DNA of 24,764 nt from a virus. The notes under the pieces were generated by a model. The model did no database searches. It saw nothing but the letters and a program-made list of their open reading frames with translations, and was not told the origin of the DNA. Below, in pieces: positions 6,563 to 15,928 of this stretch (positions are counted from its first letter, which is position 1; each line of letters starts with the position of its first letter). A program made the position numbers and the translations under genes. Location of the stretch: IMG/VR virus record IMGVR_UViG_3300042519_001112, positions 1 through 24,764 of that record. One strand, given 5' to 3'.

Positions 6563-7723
6563 TTATTTTTTTTGAAATATATACACGCCTTCGTATTTGA
6601 AGCCGTTTTTCAATTTATTGTTACCTTTTCCCGGGCGTACATTTAACATCATTTTTAGAGTATCAACATGTTCAAAGTTTAGTTTCTTTGACAATTCAAT
6701 CCATCTATCAACAACTTTAGTTTTACCCTTATCGTAATCAGCAATATTTACAGCATAGATAGCATTATCTACTAGAACCTTGTATAACATAGTTAATGTA
6801 GGTTCAACATAGAAATCAAACCATGCGTCCAAATTGTTATAGCGATTCATACATTGAGTTTCTTCATCACTATAAATTTCTAAATTAAAGTAAGGCGGGC
6901 TACTAAACGCCGCATCAAATGATTTTTCAGGTGCATCAAAATCTTCACTACAACAATGATTCATTTGATATCCATTTCCAATTGATAAATCATTAAGCAT
7001 ACTACCTAATGCATCCAATCCAACATATGTACTAGTATTCGGGTCTATTCCCGTATAATTATATCGCATATTGCTAGTCATAGATCCTAACATTCTACCA
7101 CCGTAACCACTAGAAAAATCTAATACATTACCAAACATGTTAGGACAAATATATTCATATATAGCACGTGCGTTTAACGTTTTAAAATTTTGAATAGTTC
7201 CGCCTCCAGTGAGGTCTAATGCTCGGCGTATACTTTGTGGCAATACAGCTTTATCACCTTCATTTCTGTGTTTATAACAAATTTGAATAGCTGCCTTTAA
7301 TTTTTTGTCATTGTTAAACCTATGACGCAAACTAACTTCAGAGTAATTAAAAGTTTTTGCATCTTGCATATTAGGAAACCAGAAACGACTAAAACTTTGT
7401 CCTGCTGTCATTCCGGTTGGTATTTGTTTATTTTTTAATAACACTGATTTACTAGTTAAATTTTTTAATTCTTCCTCACACCCTTCTAGTGAATAGTAAG
7501 TAATAGGTAATATATTTTTAGTACGATAGATATCAAACACTTCCTGTTGAATCAAGACCTTTCCAGCATCATCAGCTTTTGTCCAGGCTTCCTTAGAAAG
7601 TTTTTTTAAATCTTTTTCAACACTTTCATATCCGGTTGCAGTTTTTTGTGTGGGTGTAAAATTCCATTCTTTGCATATATCACTATAGTATGTTAATACT
7701 TTAGGATTTGTAATATTTGTCAT
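6563..7723 (-). CDS. DNA methyltransferase with SPPY motif (amino-methyltransferase), 386 aa
   Basis: A SAM-dependent DNA amino-methyltransferase. The SAM-binding motif I is VLDFSSGYGG (200-209), the motif II acidic residue lies in GIDPN (225-229), and the catalytic motif IV is SSPPY (274-278). SPPY is typical of N4-cytosine enzymes and DPPY of N6-adenine ones, so N4-cytosine is the better guess but not certain. The first 190 residues are unusual for a minimal methyltransferase and may hold target recognition. AGAGAT precedes the ATG, and the start overlaps the end of the HsdM-like gene by 23 bases. It is the distal gene of the helicase/methyltransferase cassette and could protect phage DNA from host nucleases. 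Confidence 0.82.
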   Translation of the reverse strand: MTNITNPKVLTYYSDICKEWNFTPTQKTATGYESVEKDLKKLSKEAWTKADDAGKVLIQQEVFDIYRTKNILPITYYSLEGCEEELKNLTSKSVLLKNKQIPTGMTAGQSFSRFWFPNMQDAKTFNYSEVSLRHRFNNDKKLKAAIQICYKHRNEGDKAVLPQSIRRALDLTGGGTIQNFKTLNARAIYEYICPNMFGNVLDFSSGYGGRMLGSMTSNMRYNYTGIDPNTSTYVGLDALGSMLNDLSIGNGYQMNHCCSEDFDAPEKSFDAAFSSPPYFNLEIYSDEETQCMNRYNNLDAWFDFYVEPTLTMLYKVLVDNAIYAVNIADYDKGKTKVVDRWIELSKKLNFEHVDTLKMMLNVRPGKGNNKLKNGFKYEGVYIFQKK

Positions 7724-8879
7724 AAATCTCTTTAACTTTCTTATAATTATTTATTGTAGGGATTCTTTTCCAAAAAACAACTCCGTTAGCAGGTGATGTT
7801 GCACTTAGAGCCTTACTCAACATTGTAATTGGGCTAGTATTCCAATATTTAATAAAACGCTCTGCCTCATTTGGATCTTCCATTTTAATCCATAAAGAAT
7901 TATGACCCGTGCCGTATACGGGACTAGCATATTTTACCGGACTTTGATGGTTACGACCACCGTTTTTACTAATAACAATCTTATGTTGACCTACTCCCTC
8001 AGAGGGGGTAATGATAGTTTTACTCACATTTACTACTTTTCTATAGTCATCACCTTCTCTACCGACTTGAAAAATTAAAGGAACATTACCGGGATTGTTA
8101 ATAACTGCTTTACTATTTGTATAATATGATCCATATTTAGCATCATAACCTTTAAATGATTGATCCAATACTTCAAGTGCATATTGATATTGAATTAAAT
8201 CATTGTTTGGTAAGAATGGTGGATTATCTACAGTTAAACTGAGTTCATCATTAAAAATAGTAACTAGTTTGTTAGTTTTAACAGGTTCAAAAACCATCAT
8301 ACATTGAGGTGTGAATGATCCAGTCAATGCTAGATACCGATATGATGTTAATTCATGTATTTTATTTTCTGTATAAGAGTTTTGATTGGCCCTGCCCGTT
8401 ACAACCAATAGTTTACATTGTTTTCTCCAATGTGGTACAAATCTGTTGATAGTGGAATAGTCTAAATTACTTATTACATAATCAAACTTAGTACCTACTG
8501 ACATGCAATCATGTTGGTCAATATTAATGTTGAAGGTGTTATCATTAATAGCACGTTTCAAATTTGAATGCGCTACCTTTACTTGAGTAGCATCAATATC
8601 GCATCCAAATAATTGATTACCAAAAATATGCGTTAATCTTTGTGTTTCATCGGGTATTGCTTTAGCAAGTGTATTCATTAATACATCAGCAAGAACCAAA
8701 AGTATAGATCCTGTGCCACATTGTGGATCACAATACGTAATATTAGGATTAGAAAGGTCTTTTCTAGGTATTTGGTTAATCAGAATACGAATATGATCCT
8801 CAGGCAACATTGTTTGGTTGCTGTTAGCATCATAAAGTTTAATTTGATTGATACGTTTTTTAATGTTATTGAAAATCAT
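7701..8879 (-). CDS. HsdM/type IIG-like adenine methyltransferase with altered motif IV, 392 aa
   Basis: Motif I is DPQCGTGSIL (51-60), close to the DPACGTGGF of type I HsdM and type IIG enzymes, and GCDID (92-96) follows at the motif II position. At motif IV, where NPPY or NPPF is expected after a hydrophobic strand, the sequence reads VISNLDYS (135-142): the asparagine and tyrosine are kept but both prolines are replaced. Activity is therefore doubtful. Residues about 280-375 look like a target-recognition region (VGQHKIVISKNGG, GTGHNSLWIKM, FWKRIP). I start at the ATG at 8879, which overlaps the helicase stop by 14 bases; the frame is open 30 codons further up, inside the helicase gene. 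Position suggests it acts with the helicase. Confidence 0.75.
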   Translation of the reverse strand: MIFNNIKKRINQIKLYDANSNQTMLPEDHIRILINQIPRKDLSNPNITYCDPQCGTGSILLVLADVLMNTLAKAIPDETQRLTHIFGNQLFGCDIDATQVKVAHSNLKRAINDNTFNINIDQHDCMSVGTKFDYVISNLDYSTINRFVPHWRKQCKLLVVTGRANQNSYTENKIHELTSYRYLALTGSFTPQCMMVFEPVKTNKLVTIFNDELSLTVDNPPFLPNNDLIQYQYALEVLDQSFKGYDAKYGSYYTNSKAVINNPGNVPLIFQVGREGDDYRKVVNVSKTIITPSEGVGQHKIVISKNGGRNHQSPVKYASPVYGTGHNSLWIKMEDPNEAERFIKYWNTSPITMLSKALSATSPANGVVFWKRIPTINNYKKVKEIYDKYYKS

Positions 8880-11064
8880 TATACTGACCAATTGCCCGAT
8901 TAATTGAAATGATATTAATTGCTGGTTTAATCTTATTCCATTCTTTCGGAACAAGCCCGGTAATGTCATCTACTACTGTAATGTCTTTATAGTTGATAAT
9001 ATCATCTAATGAATTTATTGTCAAGTTATCGGCCCATGCTACATCAATTAATTTGAAAATTTGACGCAATGCATATTTGATACGCAGTACTGTTTCCTCG
9101 TCTTCGGAAACTTCCTTAGTGGTTGCATTAGAAGTTTTTTTGCTTAACCGTTTCTTATTTGGACCGGTAAGAATGTCATTGGTATTGAGTTGACTATTTG
9201 CATTTTTATTCTTTGGGTCAGCTTTCTTGTTAGCAAGTAATAGAATAATGTCGTCAGTGATACCGGCAATATCTACCGCATTACCCACACGATCCATATA
9301 GTTATTAATATCGGATAAGAAACGTGTAGAAATGGTTCCACCGTCAATTATATTCCAAACATTACCTACGTAATCATATACTTCACTTACAGCCAACCAT
9401 TCAGCTAGAATTTTATCTACTGGGCGATTTTCAGCAATACTTTGTTGTTCGCAATGTTGATACATTACATTTACTAGACGTTCAGGTGCATAATCAAAAA
9501 CAATAACACTTTCCTTTTGGCCGTCTGACCATGGAGTTTTGCAACGAAAGCTACTTTGAAAGTAATCGGCCGCACTCTTGTCGTTATTCATCTGATGTAC
9601 ACTCCACCATTCAGGTACACTTGTACCTTCCTTAAATCGGTCACATGAAAGTGTAATAGTACCGGCGCCATGCTCATCATCACTACGTTGAATTAAATCT
9701 TTAACGTCTTGAATATTTTTCACATTTCCACCACTAGCATTAATGATAGTACGTTTACTAAAAAAGGGATGTTCGTTAAGCATTTTTGCTAAAGCGACAA
9801 TGGCTTCAACATCGTCCGGCAACATCCAAAATGCATGTTTAGATACTTTGTCAGCAAATGACAAGAATCGTTTAGGAGGTTTCTTATACGTACTTACTAC
9901 AAAATTTAAAAACTCATTTACTGCCATTACATTTTTAAACACTCCATTCTCAGTTGCAAACAATTTGGGAAATGTAAATCCATCATCACCTAAATATGAT
10001 TTAACCTTGTCAGGCACATTAATCATTGCATAATTAATATCAGCACGATATCTAAAGCGTTCAGCCATATCACCGGTGGCTTGTTTACGCAACATTTGTT
10101 CTTCAATATAGTCAAAGTTGTAAATGTCATCCTTATCATACCTACCACTAAGCACAGTTTTATATGGGGTGCCGCTTAGTTCAATCTTTTTACCAAACTT
10201 TAATCTATTCCAAAGTCTTTGTGTGTTTTCAGTCAGCGTGGCATAATGTTGCTCATCAAAGAATACAATATCCCAATATTGGGCAAAGATTTGTTTCAAC
10301 AATTCAGTTGGCTTATCAAAGTGTTTATTGATATATTGCAAACTAATGAAAGTAACATTTACTTCAGCATTGTTATGAATTAGTTTTTTTGGTTTTTTAT
10401 AATTATGATACTCCCAGTTGCTATAATTTACATGGCTTTTTTCGCCACCGGGCAACAGTTCTGACCAACTGTCATTAACTCCAACTCTAGCAGTAACAAT
10501 TAATATTGATTTAGCTTTAGTGGCACGTGCAATTTCATATGAAATGAAACACTTGCCGGCTCGCATAATAGCATTAATTAACAAGTCATTCTTTGATGTA
10601 AGCCTGTCTACGGCCCAATCTACAATTTTTTGTTGATATGAGAGAGCCGAAAAGTTTTCTATTTCGGCTACCCCATATCTTTTCTCATTAACTAGTCTTT
10701 TTCCTATATTAACTACATTATCCACACTCTCGTGTTTTGGATCAAAAAACCACTCAGATCCACGACCATGGACCCACGTTCCCATATTTTTTTGTTTTTT
10801 GTGAAAGAAATCCTTTTCCAGCTTGCGAAGGTTACTTAAACTTGTACTCTCATCACCGGTTTCACAAAGATCGGAAAAATCTTCATAATGCAGAATTTCG
10901 TAAGTGTCACCTGTCGATGACGCCTCTCTAAATTGTTCTTTTATTCGTGATTCAGCGGCTTCGTATGCGCTGTTTGCTAATCGTCTAGCTGACCCGTTTT
11001 TAACTTCGTTAACAAGTCGTCTGGTACGGGAAGTATACCAATAAATTACGGTATAATATTTCAT
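8866..11064 (-). CDS. SF2 helicase/restriction-type translocase, 732 aa, possible GIY-YIG-like N-terminus
   Basis: A complete superfamily 2 helicase core is visible: a Q-motif-like YQQKIV (143-148), Walker A NAIMRAGKC (164-172), DEQH (270-273), SGTP (297-300), motif V around DRFKEGTSVPEWW and motif VI QSSFRCKT (503-510). It resembles helicase subunits of restriction enzymes more than replicative helicases. The first 110 residues may be a diverged GIY-YIG-type nuclease domain: ESRIKEQF (38-45) would supply the arginine and GSEWFF (102-107) the catalytic glutamate, but the GIY and YIG strands are not clear. The C-terminal 90 residues form a further charged helical region. It has its own promoter (11092-11120), AAAGGAA before the ATG, and overlaps the HsdM-like gene, so nuclease, translocase and methyltransferase may form one complex. 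Confidence 0.82.
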   Translation of the reverse strand: MKYYTVIYWYTSRTRRLVNEVKNGSARRLANSAYEAAESRIKEQFREASSTGDTYEILHYEDFSDLCETGDESTSLSNLRKLEKDFFHKKQKNMGTWVHGRGSEWFFDPKHESVDNVVNIGKRLVNEKRYGVAEIENFSALSYQQKIVDWAVDRLTSKNDLLINAIMRAGKCFISYEIARATKAKSILIVTARVGVNDSWSELLPGGEKSHVNYSNWEYHNYKKPKKLIHNNAEVNVTFISLQYINKHFDKPTELLKQIFAQYWDIVFFDEQHYATLTENTQRLWNRLKFGKKIELSGTPYKTVLSGRYDKDDIYNFDYIEEQMLRKQATGDMAERFRYRADINYAMINVPDKVKSYLGDDGFTFPKLFATENGVFKNVMAVNEFLNFVVSTYKKPPKRFLSFADKVSKHAFWMLPDDVEAIVALAKMLNEHPFFSKRTIINASGGNVKNIQDVKDLIQRSDDEHGAGTITLSCDRFKEGTSVPEWWSVHQMNNDKSAADYFQSSFRCKTPWSDGQKESVIVFDYAPERLVNVMYQHCEQQSIAENRPVDKILAEWLAVSEVYDYVGNVWNIIDGGTISTRFLSDINNYMDRVGNAVDIAGITDDIILLLANKKADPKNKNANSQLNTNDILTGPNKKRLSKKTSNATTKEVSEDEETVLRIKYALRQIFKLIDVAWADNLTINSLDDIINYKDITVVDDITGLVPKEWNKIKPAINIISINRAIGQYNDFQ

Positions 11065-11780: not shown

Positions 11781-12197
11781 TCAACTTACCTCAGTTCGTC
11801 CATTGCCAAGGTCCTTAGTACGGATAACTCTTGCATCACGATTCTCTGGATCTGCAACTTGCTGTTCATACATCTCTAAGGCCACGTTGCGACAAACTGT
11901 CTGAAACCAACGATCCACAATGATTACATCTGTATCATCATCACGTTGTTTATAACCTGCTCTAATTAAATTCAAAACAAACTTGTCATTGAAATCTAAA
12001 TCAAATGCACCATCATTGATATTCTCGGGATTGATTTCTACTTTAGTAATAGCAATGTAGGGTTCACTTGCTGCCGTTGCTTTTTCTTTTGCAGTAAGCT
12101 CCGGTGTAGGGGGTTTCTGTTGTTTAGGTTTGGGTTCTTTTTTAAGAACAGGTTCAACCTCTTGCTTTTTAAATAAGTTTTTTATTTTGTCAAACAT
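11781..12197 (-). CDS. Conserved T4-like phage hypothetical protein, 138 aa
   Basis: The N-terminal 35 residues are lysine/proline-rich and probably disordered. The rest is a compact acidic domain with AASEPYIAITKVEINPENI, DGAFDLDFNDKFVLNLIRAG, a DDDTD turn, IVDRWFQTVCRNVALEMYEQ and a C-terminal RTKDLGNGRTEVS. I associate this domain with marine T4-like phages, where its role is unknown. It starts inside the last codons of the UvdE gene (16-base overlap), so it probably depends on UvdE transcription and translation. Confidence 0.75.
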   Translation of the reverse strand: MFDKIKNLFKKQEVEPVLKKEPKPKQQKPPTPELTAKEKATAASEPYIAITKVEINPENINDGAFDLDFNDKFVLNLIRAGYKQRDDDTDVIIVDRWFQTVCRNVALEMYEQQVADPENRDARVIRTKDLGNGRTEVS

Positions 12198-13207
12198 TTG
12201 TATCTTTCATGTAATTTAAAGCTGGCAAGATTCTTTGCCTTTGATTCACACATCATATCAAAATTATCAATGAATGTCAATGCCCAATCGTTCACCGCTT
12301 CGTTCCAATAATAATCACTATGTGCCCGAAGTTTCTGTTTACTGTGACCTGCTTCAATCAACGCACCATGAGAGGGTAACTGTGATCCGGGATGGCCGAC
12401 AAGTACATCTTCACGACTGACGGAGTAATGGAGAGTAGGGCGAACGCCACGCCAACTATCAATGACCATTTTAACACGGTCATCAGTAGGTTGAATATAT
12501 TCACCTTCCCGAATCCAATTGTGATGAATGTCCATGACCGTAGGGACGAGGTCAGATAACGATAAGCAGTCAAGTAATCCATGTGTGTATTCCTCATTTT
12601 CTAGTGTTAGTGTGTTTCTCGCTTCTGGAGACAATCTATTGTACACATCTCTAATGCCTTGTGGGCCCCTACGTCCAGAGATGTGTACATTTACTTTGAA
12701 GTCTTGAAATGTCTTCCCATAGCCCATAAAACGAACCATGTCACAATGATATTCAAATTCTTCTATACTCTTATTTACTACCTCATCACGGTCACTCGCT
12801 AAAACTACAAATTGGTCAGGGTGAAAGCTAAGACGAACATCATTGGCTCTAGCTGTTTCACCAATGGGTGCAAACCAACGCTGTAAGCTATTCTGTACAT
12901 CAGTACTTTGCCAGAATTCTTTGTATCCATCCATAGTGTAGAAACTGAGCATATCACTAGTAAGACGAACCATACGCAATTCGGGTTCTAATGTAGCAAC
13001 ACGTTTAACTAATGCGTGAGTGTTCATAATGTTACGTTTAGCAACATCCATAATCTTTTCTTCTACTACACTACGATTATTACGCTTTGCCCACGCTTGT
13101 GTAGTACCACCTGTATTAAGGCCTTCTGCCGAAACAAGCTCACCTTTGTGGTTAATTTCTGCCCATTTACAAGCAAAGCCGATGCGTTTGATAGATTGAT
13201 TTGTCAA
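12182..13207 (-). CDS. uvdE: UV damage endonuclease UvdE, 341 aa, TTG start
   Basis: UvdE cuts DNA 5' to UV photoproducts and starts an alternative excision-repair route. The TIM-barrel family signature is clear: RIGFACKWAE near the start, RLSFHPDQFVVLAS, NVHISGRRG, TLENEEYTHG, VPTVMDIHHNW, RPTLHYSV and HSDYYW, which together supply the histidine, glutamate and aspartate metal ligands. The frame is open up to an ATG at 13249, but that ATG lies upstream of the -10 box of the promoter at 13240-13268, so it cannot be on that transcript. A TTG at 13207, with GGA about 11 bases upstream, gives a family-like N-terminus (TNQSIKRIGFACKW). The gene is divergent from the packaged-protein operon. Confidence 0.92.
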   Translation of the reverse strand: MTNQSIKRIGFACKWAEINHKGELVSAEGLNTGGTTQAWAKRNNRSVVEEKIMDVAKRNIMNTHALVKRVATLEPELRMVRLTSDMLSFYTMDGYKEFWQSTDVQNSLQRWFAPIGETARANDVRLSFHPDQFVVLASDRDEVVNKSIEEFEYHCDMVRFMGYGKTFQDFKVNVHISGRRGPQGIRDVYNRLSPEARNTLTLENEEYTHGLLDCLSLSDLVPTVMDIHHNWIREGEYIQPTDDRVKMVIDSWRGVRPTLHYSVSREDVLVGHPGSQLPSHGALIEAGHSKQKLRAHSDYYWNEAVNDWALTFIDNFDMMCESKAKNLASFKLHERYKCLTK

Positions 13208-13223
13208 AGTAATAGTCCAAAGT

Positions 13224-13231
13224 GATAAATA
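13224..13231 (+). promoter_or_regulatory. Candidate late promoter (GATAAATA) for the plus-strand operon
   Basis: GATAAATA on the plus strand matches seven of eight bases of the T4 late element and lies 55 bases before the ATG at 13287. Late expression would suit genes for head-packaged proteins. No convincing sigma-70 promoter faces this operon. Confidence 0.42.
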
Positions 13232-13239
13232 ATAGATAT

Positions 13240-13268
13240 AGTGTAGCATACCTACGCAATAAAGTCAA
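13240..13268 (-). promoter_or_regulatory. Sigma-70 promoter for uvdE
   Basis: Minus strand: TTGACT (13268-13263), 17-base spacer, TACACT (13245-13240). It predicts a transcript start near 13233, about 26 bases before the TTG start of uvdE. Confidence 0.75.
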
Positions 13269-13286
13269 CTATTTACGGATAACAAT

Positions 13287-14174
13287 ATGAGATTTAACGA
13301 AATTATATCAGAGAGTTCAGGAACCAAACTGAAAGACATAGCAAAAATTGCCACCAATATGCAGGATGCTGACTTTTGGTTAGTGCGTAAGGGTAGTGAT
13401 AAGACAGTAGGTAAGCCTGTTAAAGAGTTTGATCCTTCAAGGATTGGTATTAAAGTAGTAAAAACTGATGTTATTGACCCAAACTATCTTTATTATACAA
13501 TGATGAATTTACACAATCAGGGTCATTTTGCACGTATAGCTAATGGCACAACTAATTTAGTTAATATTACTGTAAATGATATTGCTAATATTCCATTAGG
13601 TCAACAGGGTATGAATGAAGCAAAAGACCCATGGAAAGAATATGAATTTATACACGATGGTCAAAAAATAGGACACATATATAGTAGGACAGGTCAGCCT
13701 CCCTTTACAACTAGAAGAAAAGTTGGTAGATTTATAAAGCAAATGAACCATAATAGTCTTAAAGATGCTCAGAATTATTTAATTAACAAATTTTTAGGTA
13801 GATCAACTTACTATGATACTAACGGGACACTTCAGCAAAATATAGATGAAGACTGGAACAAAGTCAATAAGAAAGACAAAACGTCCGGTATGAGCCGAAA
13901 AGCAGTTAAAGCATATCGTAGAGAAAATCCAGGCAGCAAATTGCAAACAGCAGTTACTACCAAACCTAGTAAATTAAAGCCTGGATCAAAAGCTGCCAAA
14001 CGCCGCAAGAGTTTTTGTGCCCGTATGAGTGGTAACAAAGGTCCTATGAAAAAGCCTAATGGTAAACCTACCCCTAAAGCATTAGCACTACGCAGATGGA
14101 ATTGCGAGAGTATAGAGCAAATGGAAGAATTAGTAATGCTAGCTGAACAATATATTAGGAACCTTAAGAAATGA
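13287..14174 (+). CDS. Predicted virion-packaged multi-domain protein with HsdS-like domain, 295 aa
   Basis: The N-terminus MRFNEIISE/SS resembles the T4 capsid-targeting peptide (MKTYQEFIAE/A in internal proteins and Alt), which is cut by the prohead protease after I/L-x-E. Residues about 18-107 resemble a type I specificity-subunit (HsdS) domain: ADFWLVRKGS, IGIKVV, DPNYLYYTMMNL, LVNITVNDIANIPLG. A second possible cut, GMNE/AK (111/112), precedes a domain with KEYEFIHDGQKIGHIYSR, and a third, NIDE/DW (188/189), precedes a basic tail. That tail ends in a phage block, PGSKAAKRRKSFCARMSG to ALALRRWNC (232-273), of unknown function. A GGATAAC ribosome binding site precedes the ATG, and the stop overlaps the next gene as ATGA. 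Packaging and cutting are inference. Confidence 0.68.
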   Translation: MRFNEIISESSGTKLKDIAKIATNMQDADFWLVRKGSDKTVGKPVKEFDPSRIGIKVVKTDVIDPNYLYYTMMNLHNQGHFARIANGTTNLVNITVNDIANIPLGQQGMNEAKDPWKEYEFIHDGQKIGHIYSRTGQPPFTTRRKVGRFIKQMNHNSLKDAQNYLINKFLGRSTYYDTNGTLQQNIDEDWNKVNKKDKTSGMSRKAVKAYRRENPGSKLQTAVTTKPSKLKPGSKAAKRRKSFCARMSGNKGPMKKPNGKPTPKALALRRWNCESIEQMEELVMLAEQYIRNLKK

Positions 14175-15928
14175 ACTTTACAGAATTATTTGAGGGTGCA
14201 ACACCTAAATTACCCGGAGCAGTAGCGGGTATAAAAGTTATGAGCATGGATCAATTCCTAGCTCAATCAGGTGATGAACCGGAAGAAAAAATAGATGAAA
14301 TGTCTTCCGAAGAATTAGATAAAATGTCACCTGAAGAATTAGCACAGTTTACACATAGGGCTAGAAAAGATAAATCTAAAATAGATCCTAATGCAATTGA
14401 TCAGGCTTATGGTAAAAGTATGTCTATAATGTTCCCTGATAGCAATAAACGCAATACACAATCTACAAATAATAAACAACAAAACGTAAATGAAGGTATT
14501 ATAGGTGATGTATACAATAAATTAAAATCAATGGTCCTAAAAGTGTTGGGTAAGAAACTAGTCAAAAACCCAGAGGATCAAATTGCCTTTCAACGTATGA
14601 TGAGTAGAGTTACTGGGCCACTTGATACCACTCAATATTCAAAATTATGGCAAGACTATAAAAATGACAAACACTACTATGTTAGGTTACCAACGCTTCA
14701 GGATATGAACAACAGCGAACATATGTATTTGTGGTCTAATAGTTTATCACAATACGTAATGGATAAATTTCCAAACGCTTCGACGGAAGCATTACTGCAA
14801 GCTGTAGAAGGATTAACGCAGTTAGCAGTGAAAGACTTTAAACAAAGCTATCGTGATTTAGATGAAGCAACCAAACTTCCAGCACAAACACGTGAACTAA
14901 AAGGTCAAGAACTAGACGATTACTTAGATAGGATTCGTAATCGTGAAAAGGGTAAAACAGACAAATATAAACTACCTTACATACATCGCTCAAGTGTAGT
15001 AAAATACTACAATGAAGAAGGTAAACGCTACAATACAGACCAAATCAAAACAGCATTGGGTGTTCGTCCAAAGAAACTTCTTAAACAAAATGAGAAGATG
15101 AAACATAGCAACGGTGAACTAGAACAATTCTATAACATTGGCTTTGCCGCATTAGTTGGTATAGCATTAGATGAGGGTACTAACGAACTAATAGTAGTTA
15201 ATACATGTCCGGGCGCTGGTTCATGCAAAATAGAGTGTTTTGCTATGAAGGGCGGTAAGGTTCAATTTGAAGGTCCTTGGTTAAGTGATGGAAGAATACT
15301 AACTTTCTTATTAAATGATCCAGATGGTTTCTTCAATCAACTAAGTAATGAAATTACAAAAGAAGAAAAACTAGCACAAAAAGGTGGTTACAATCTAACT
15401 ATTCGTTGGCATGATGCTGGTGATTTCTTTAGTCCAGAATATCAAGACTTAGCATTTAAATTAGCAGCCTCTCACCCTGATGTTAAGTTCTATGCTTACA
15501 CAAAAATAGCAGATGCGGCATTAGGTCAAAAGCCAAGTAACTTCATTGTTAACTGGAGTGAAGGTGCAAGTACTAGCCAAGAAAAACAAGTTAAACAACA
15601 AGATCCGCAATTAGATGTAACAAAGAATAGTCGTATTGTTCCTAGTAAGTTATTCTATGACTTATTGAAGAAAGATGAGTCAGGTAAGTTAGATAAGACT
15701 GCTGATGGCGCATGGCAACCAAAAGACTTGGCTGCATTAGAAGAATTAAAAGATAGATTGGCAAATCAATATAATCTAAAACGTGATAGTATTATTGATT
15801 ACAATGAGATGATGGCTACACCACAGAAGAATAACATCAAGAAATGGAATGTTATTATTGCTCCGGGTGAGGGTGATATCAGTGCTAATAGGCAAGATGT
15901 ATTGTCTACATTATTATTAAAACATTAA
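14171..15928 (+). CDS. Predicted virion-packaged protein with Gp88-like cysteine-motif domain, 585 aa
   Basis: The N-terminus MNFTELFE/GA again resembles a T4 capsid-targeting peptide with an L-x-E/G cleavage site. An acidic linker (20-105) follows. Further sites VNE/G (108/109) and LDE/A (232/233) separate a helical middle domain from a C-terminal enzyme-like domain. The latter resembles the phage Gp88-like family: NTCPGAGSCKIECFAMKG (344-361, cysteines 346, 352 and 356), an arginine/asparagine region, RWHDAGDFFSPEY (412-424) and FYAYTK (440-445). In this family the three cysteines could hold a metal or iron-sulphur cluster on a TIM-like barrel; the reaction is unknown to me. It is co-translated with the preceding packaged-type protein. 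Expression is probably late. Confidence 0.7.
   Translation: MNFTELFEGATPKLPGAVAGIKVMSMDQFLAQSGDEPEEKIDEMSSEELDKMSPEELAQFTHRARKDKSKIDPNAIDQAYGKSMSIMFPDSNKRNTQSTNNKQQNVNEGIIGDVYNKLKSMVLKVLGKKLVKNPEDQIAFQRMMSRVTGPLDTTQYSKLWQDYKNDKHYYVRLPTLQDMNNSEHMYLWSNSLSQYVMDKFPNASTEALLQAVEGLTQLAVKDFKQSYRDLDEATKLPAQTRELKGQELDDYLDRIRNREKGKTDKYKLPYIHRSSVVKYYNEEGKRYNTDQIKTALGVRPKKLLKQNEKMKHSNGELEQFYNIGFAALVGIALDEGTNELIVVNTCPGAGSCKIECFAMKGGKVQFEGPWLSDGRILTFLLNDPDGFFNQLSNEITKEEKLAQKGGYNLTIRWHDAGDFFSPEYQDLAFKLAASHPDVKFYAYTKIADAALGQKPSNFIVNWSEGASTSQEKQVKQQDPQLDVTKNSRIVPSKLFYDLLKKDESGKLDKTADGAWQPKDLAALEELKDRLANQYNLKRDSIIDYNEMMATPQKNNIKKWNVIIAPGEGDISANRQDVLSTLLLKH

Follow-up and report, generated by a model that had tools for sequence, protein, structure and literature searches.

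The window analysed here is a complete IMG/VR record of 24,764 bases with a low GC content of 35%, and its source is a virus infecting bacteria, a lake or freshwater-type phage. Two ORFs on the forward strand, joined by an ATGA overlap, had been described in a sequence-only reading as head-packaged polyproteins with capsid-targeting starts and protease-like sites at domain borders. Both ORFs are genuine, their starts (MRFNEIISE/S and MNFTELFE/G) lie where that reading placed them, and the four internal glutamate sites it named are exact (MNE/A at 111/112 and IDE/D at 188/189 in the first protein; VNE/G at 108/109 and LDE/A at 232/233 in the second). The parts of the two proteins are as follows, with the slash marking a proposed cut.

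13287..14174, + strand: first protein ORF, 295 aa, start MRFNEIISE/S; leader and three modules, C-terminal DUF6321
13287..13313, + strand: leader MRFNEIISE/, residues 1-9, proposed cut after E9; E9 in 25 of 27 aligned rows
13314..13619, + strand: module 1, residues 10-111
13617..13619, + strand: internal site QQGMNE/A (E111); module 1 homology ends at E111, followed by different modules in relatives
13620..13850, + strand: module 2, residues 112-188, no known fold
13848..13850, + strand: internal site QNIDE/DW (E188); φ-x-E before D or G conserved in DUF6321 homologues
13851..14171, + strand: module 3, DUF6321 and tail, residues 189-295, net charge +21
14171..15928, + strand: second protein ORF, 585 aa, start MNFTELFE/G; leader and four modules, C-terminal GP88
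14171..14194, + strand: leader MNFTELFE/, residues 1-8, proposed cut after E8; E8 in 43 of 44 homologues
14297..14299, + strand: internal site EKIDE/M (E43); homology junction, E in 33 of 36 rows; missed by the sequence-only reading
14492..14494, + strand: internal site QQNVNE/G (E108); exact homology junction, within the low-confidence linker 84-113 of the model
14495..14866, + strand: helical module, residues 109-232; in relatives it starts at the residue following VNE/, VDE/ or ELDE/
14864..14866, + strand: internal site RDLDE/A (E232); E232 and A233 invariant in 44 of 44 homologues, model confidence falling at 225-233
14867..15925, + strand: GP88 module, residues 233-585; well folded in the model

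The gene pair is a conserved operon. Of the 81 homologues of the second protein, 47 have a DUF6321 protein encoded immediately upstream, in most cases joined by the ATGA overlap seen here, and a further leader-bearing gene lies behind many of the homologues; a scan of genome contigs returned only three distant relatives of the second protein. DUF6321 and GP88 are the only named domains among the three to four modules of each window protein, with no known effector domain in either, and modules in relatives include ART, GNAT, ParB, GH19 and CTP_transf. The late-type promoter upstream (GATAAATA at 13224), formerly taken as support, is uninformative, as such motifs show no enrichment at leader genes: NATAAATA lies within 150 bp upstream of 8 of 26 leader or linker genes versus 168 of 830 other genes, and TATAAATA of 1 of 26 versus 25 of 830. 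Elsewhere in the window, 7701-11064 (- strand) holds both a methyltransferase-like gene with a weak match to BREX PglX and an overlapping ResIII helicase-like gene, and the pair resembles pieces of a restriction or defence system carried by a phage. A UvdE-type UV endonuclease gene at 12182-13249 (- strand) lies divergently just upstream of the first gene; its listed ATG is probably too early, since the family similarity begins near residue 22.

Counted in the two proteins alone, φ-x-E motifs are not above chance (6 in the first protein versus 2.6 expected, 6 in the second versus 8.4 expected). Those left out by the sequence-only reading are E47, E281 and E287 in the first protein and E43, E335 and E525 in the second, and E335 sits inside the folded GP88 domain. 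Because the raw count is unremarkable, the claim stands or falls on the relatives.

Relatives were taken from IMG/VR, including five long records that were examined in their entirety. All five carry a short N-terminal peptide, typically MRASEFITE/A, on unrelated proteins, often in consecutive genes. Leaders of the T4 internal proteins read MKTYQEFIAE/A. Across all fetched loci, the strict leader MR(A/F)xE(F/I)(I/L)xE is present at 143 of 9136 ORF starts versus 4 of 18243 internal methionines, which makes it about 70 times rarer after an internal Met. Once the first 12 residues are removed, the 143 leader proteins form 21 clusters with no detected similarity between clusters. A φ-x-E leader is found in 67 of 132 GVAEG-linker proteins versus 58 of 632 controls (p=1e-25), and 9% of control proteins have φ-x-E among their first 14 residues. 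At the level of sequence, one exchangeable peptide recurs as the leader of unrelated proteins.

In the first protein, module 1 shares 53-56% identity over residues 14-104 with free-standing 95-aa plasmid proteins of Pantoea, Enterobacter and Klebsiella, and this match ends just inside E9 and E111. Module 1 has no Pfam match, and a sequence search for solved relatives gave nothing significant; against 18 PADLOC Specificity_I models, the best match (E=8e-6) covers a partial region only and indicates a weak likeness to HsdS, the specificity subunit of type I restriction-modification systems, which would, at a guess, fit a counter-restriction decoy. As a separate observation, module 1 (13314-13619) may represent an anti-restriction family common to plasmids and phages. 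After the equivalent of E111, different phages continue with AKDPW, GENW, DWQKV, GTEQQ or SSSQQ, and in L084 module 2 begins exactly after QQGLAE/, behind a different upstream module. In G007, one first-protein homologue, 826 aa long, contains several domains separated by QGVAEG. The DUF6321 (PF19846) profile matches residues 196-271 (E=4e-15; 56.6 bits versus a curated cut-off of 28.5), and this basic module (+21) may bind DNA. At the DUF6321 border, φ-x-E precedes D or G in all homologues with a readable border (84 rows) and the upstream module varies; in L026, L034, L041 and others, the leader abuts DUF6321 directly (MRATEFITE/DWN, MRADEIINE/DWQ). Of eight such borders from cultured T4-like cyanophages, three have Thr or Phe, not V/I/L/M, at P3. 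In seven non-T4 phages, among them pelagiphages, DSL-LC04 and a Microcystis phage, DUF6321 is free-standing (87-105 aa) with no site before it. AlphaFold models the first protein poorly (mean pLDDT 49), and only the low confidence of both linkers is taken from that model.

In the second protein, the GP88 (PF17338) profile matches residues 303-474 (E=5e-26; 92.5 bits versus a curated cut-off of 24.4), and the module contains invariant C346, C352, C356 and H414-D-A-G-D-F-F, which suggests, as a guess, that GP88 is probably a metal or Fe-S enzyme. AlphaFold predicts a confident GP88 domain and low-confidence linkers at 84-113, which holds E108, and at 225-233, which holds E232. The GP88 fold gave no PDB match at E<=0.001, and a sequence search for its solved relatives gave nothing significant; the radical-SAM enzymes TYW1, MiaB and MoaA appear as weak matches far down the list and were not used. 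Some of the 44 homologues in which E232 and A233 are invariant are only 35-39% identical. After the equivalent of E108, relatives continue with GIIGDV, ATKLPA, AGMNRRGFLKG, GEVSLHP or ADISRRGFLKG; for module 44-108, the ATKLPA continuation leads straight into GP88 and others lead into Tat-type modules. The whole stretch from E43 to E232 is absent in L094 and L096, which read NEIDE/ATK and EELDE/ATK.

When each window module is compared alone, homology breaks exactly at E111, E188, E43, E108 and E232. The internal sites had been proposed as domain borders, and in relatives each coincides exactly with a point where homology switches from one module to another; the conservation of the glutamates in homologues, on which that proposal had staked itself, was examined, and they are kept at the DUF6321 and GP88 borders. 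More generally, borders of similarity blocks in 291 proteins fall at φ-x-E in 36% of starts and 42% of ends, versus 12% and 15% at random. In all, 620 module copies were seen, with 92 families of two or more members, and 53 module families have at least two different downstream neighbours.

The linker of the relatives is an in-frame 18-bp element, CAAGGTGTGGCGGAAGGC, encoding QGVAE/G and found in at least 120 contigs; exact copies of CAAGGTGTGGCGGAAGG are found in at least 120 IMG/VR stretches. Giant multidomain phage proteins (L258, L277, L309, L333, L271) carry up to 7 copies of CAAGGTGTGGCGGAAGGC per gene. Of 294 distinct copies, 293 are open in the GVAEG frame, versus 4 and 1 in the two remaining forward frames. 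The linker codons are rare in these genomes (GTG 0.10, GCG 0.06), so part of the conservation is at the DNA level, which fits a recombination seam. Among 473 near-copies, changes at the first two codon bases number 4 for Glu versus 31 for Ala (P2) and 34 for Gly (P4), and the middle base of the P3 codon shows 1 change versus 15 and 23 (p<1e-5 for the Glu and P3 constraint, the p-values being indicative because near-copies are related and not fully independent). P1 is E in 469 of the 473, and P3 is V, M, L or I only, plus one A. A hydrophobic P3 and a Glu at P1 are the specificity expected of a gp21-type protease under the T4 gp21 rule. The window sites QQGMNE/A, QNIDE/D, QQNVNE/G and RDLDE/A are drifted forms of the relatives' QGVAEG linkers.

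A protease of this type is encoded among the relatives, where both T4-type gp21 (PF03420) and gp23 (PF07068) are present in the same 7 of the 31 records; the five longest (264-525 kb) belong to these 7. In 10 relatives, the end of the gp23 propeptide reads L(A/K)E/(S/N), in a position predicted by the T4 cut, and gp22 homologues also carry LVAEG. No gp21 was found in the window or in its closest long contigs, G001-G003; because these are fragments of 90-116 kb without head genes, we infer the presence of gp21 in the phage of the window. Additionally, Tat signals were predicted by pattern only (RR-x-F-L-K and a hydrophobic stretch), giving 25 distinct cases, 11 directly behind the leader and 14 inside polyproteins at residues 41-916. 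All 14 internal cases have φ-x-E at most 14 residues upstream versus a background of 18%. A predicted Tat signal this far inside a chain would serve no purpose unless the chain were cut there, which supports cutting. The cargo behind Tat signals includes GH19-type muralytic enzymes and HExxH (M48-type) peptidases, and one leader-bearing relative matches ART-PolyVal. As a side observation, Tat signals combined with GH19-like or HExxH modules, for example at L092:9890-11416, L187:7028-11365 and L083:10276-10965, point to possible delivery to the host periplasm after injection.

Published virion data are available for S-CREM2, a cultured T4-like cyanophage. ORF137 of S-CREM2, which is homologous to residues 103-273 of the first protein, is listed in the proteome of CsCl-purified virions (PMC10665884 Table 3), with 4 peptides and 4.1% coverage (PMC10665884), and carries DUF6321 after SSMNE/DW (SSMNE/DWQKANRKDKTDGMS). 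ORF160, which holds other modules of these polyproteins, is also detected there (PMC10665884). Among the detected virion proteins, a SAM hydrolase, a kinase, a cytidylyltransferase and ORFs 13 and 136 begin with MKxFxxFLTE-type leaders. With automatic starts, leader and virion detection are associated (5 of 17 versus 7 of 139, p=0.004). The authors caution that such regulatory proteins might have co-purified and not been separated from virions (PMC10665884). Separately, the listed virion proteins include a Cas9-like protein (OR473000.1:7704-10313; L347) with FMAE/A a little way into its annotated sequence, a pattern that would fit a T4-type leader and a start annotated too far upstream.

Taken together, the leader, the conservation of sites, the exact junctions, the shuffling and the presence of gp21 and gp23 in relatives lead us to regard it as likely that both proteins are T4-type head-packaged polyproteins of shuffled modules, cut at their linkers, whose modules enter the host. 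Cleavage, injection and effector function are what we infer from these patterns, and packaging of these very proteins is putative. In the proposed sequence of events, a T4-like capsid targeting sequence (CTS) would dock the precursor in the prohead core, and during prohead maturation a gp21-type protease would cut after (V/I/L/M)-x-E, taking off the leader and severing the chain between modules. The first protein would yield an HsdS-like module, an unknown module and the basic DUF6321, and the second would yield two short stretches, a helical module and the GP88 domain. DNA would be packaged alongside the freed modules, which would leave with it and act in the host as individual proteins, either early in infection or by binding DNA. 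Cargo modules of relatives include ADP-ribosyltransferase, GNAT, ParB-like, cytidylyltransferase, M48 peptidase and GH19 muralytic ones; in some of these, the cut alone would expose a Tat signal, and the linker DNA would double as a seam for swapping modules.

The same linkers could be recombination seams or flexible joints only, allowing in-frame module exchange in proteins that stay whole. The preservation of rare codons in the 18-bp element (GTG 0.10, GCG 0.06) and the 53 module families with two or more downstream neighbours agree with this explanation; however, drifted copies resist change only at the Glu and the hydrophobic P3, the DUF6321 and GP88 borders keep φ-x-E without the DNA element, the leader and gp23 obey the same rule, and internal Tat signals need a new N-terminus, and we consider it unlikely that the linkers are nothing more. 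It is quite improbable, in our judgement, that the proteins belong to the prohead core or its filler, as gp22, gp67 and gp68 do, and are chopped in maturation and mostly expelled instead of being delivered as effectors. Modules that are folded, conserved and enzyme-like (GP88 with its invariant Cys and His; ART, GNAT, GH19 and M48 in relatives), that vary between close relatives like accessory cargo, and whose homologues are listed as still present in mature S-CREM2 virions argue against a filler role, even though gp21 cuts T4 core proteins into multiple fragments (PMC9026906), DUF6321 and related modules are small and basic, and the gp22 homologues here carry LVAEG too.

A chance origin, with ordinary enzymes bearing E-rich N-termini and linkers unrelated to the head, would account for raw motif counts at the shuffled expectation and for the 9% of control proteins with φ-x-E in their first 14 residues. 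This explanation is contradicted by all comparative tests (leader, junctions, linker drift, block borders and Tat) and by the published listing of an S-CREM2 homologue among virion proteins; it is already largely refuted, and we give it almost no credence.

If the polyprotein reading is true, phages with T4-type heads use their capsid maturation protease for polyprotein processing, as many RNA viruses use theirs, and one gene could bring several proteins into a bacterium at once. It would also explain the recurrence of modules such as DUF6321 in virion proteins, and a leader combined with φ-x-E module borders would provide a sequence rule for hundreds of candidate injected proteins in environmental phages. 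A cultured phage such as S-CREM2 would then allow direct tests of packaging and cleavage. A broader version, for and against which we see the balance as even, is a cassette system in which freshwater T4-type phages would maintain a large pool of exchangeable head-delivered effector modules of about 100 residues, joined in frame by an 18-bp element that would be both seam and capsid-protease site, so that one gene would give many separately delivered proteins, some released with an N-terminal Tat signal for export to the host periplasm.

The closest known systems are the T4 internal proteins and Alt. T4 gp21 cuts by the rule L/I-X-E, ten residues of the IPIII leader suffice for head targeting (PMC9026906), and Alt is cut at both ends, at ITE-6 and LTE-619 (PMC9026906, PMC5694885). 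Like IPI-IPIII and Alt, the proteins described here carry a leader of about 10 residues ending in φ-x-E on unrelated cargo, with T4-type gp21, gp22 and gp23 in relatives. Unlike them, with their one product per gene, they join several modules in a chain with a site between each, and the modules are swapped at these sites. In phiKZ and SPN3US, ejection proteins are processed after Glu, sometimes at several places, by the gp21-related gp175 and gp245 (PMC5694885); those multiple cuts are read as propeptide clearance, unlike the module separation proposed here. S-CREM2 ORF137 and ORF160 (PMC10665884) share the same modules, with DUF6321 following MNE/DW in ORF137, and are annotated as hypothetical, the portion of that report used here containing no discussion of a leader or cleavage. 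The C-terminal domain of the second protein belongs to the GP88 family PF17338 (mycobacteriophage gp88 and others) and, unlike PF17338 elsewhere, is joined to a leader and upstream modules through LDE/A. A collection of open-access papers, searched for the repeat, for DUF6321 and for phage polyproteins, contained no earlier account; what appears to be new is a capsid protease segmenting proteins at module borders with its putative site serving as the exchange seam, of which no earlier description was found there. Polyvalent proteins (Iyer et al. 2017, PMC5512222) are multidomain phage proteins with ART, GNAT, ParB and other domains that are believed to accompany the DNA into the host, and for them delivery in one piece or cleavage by a metallopeptidase domain of their own was proposed (PMC5512222). 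Their cargo domains overlap with those of the relatives, whereas here the apparent signature of a capsid-maturation protease lies at every module border. The best reading is that the system represents a combination of T4 internal proteins with polyvalent proteins.
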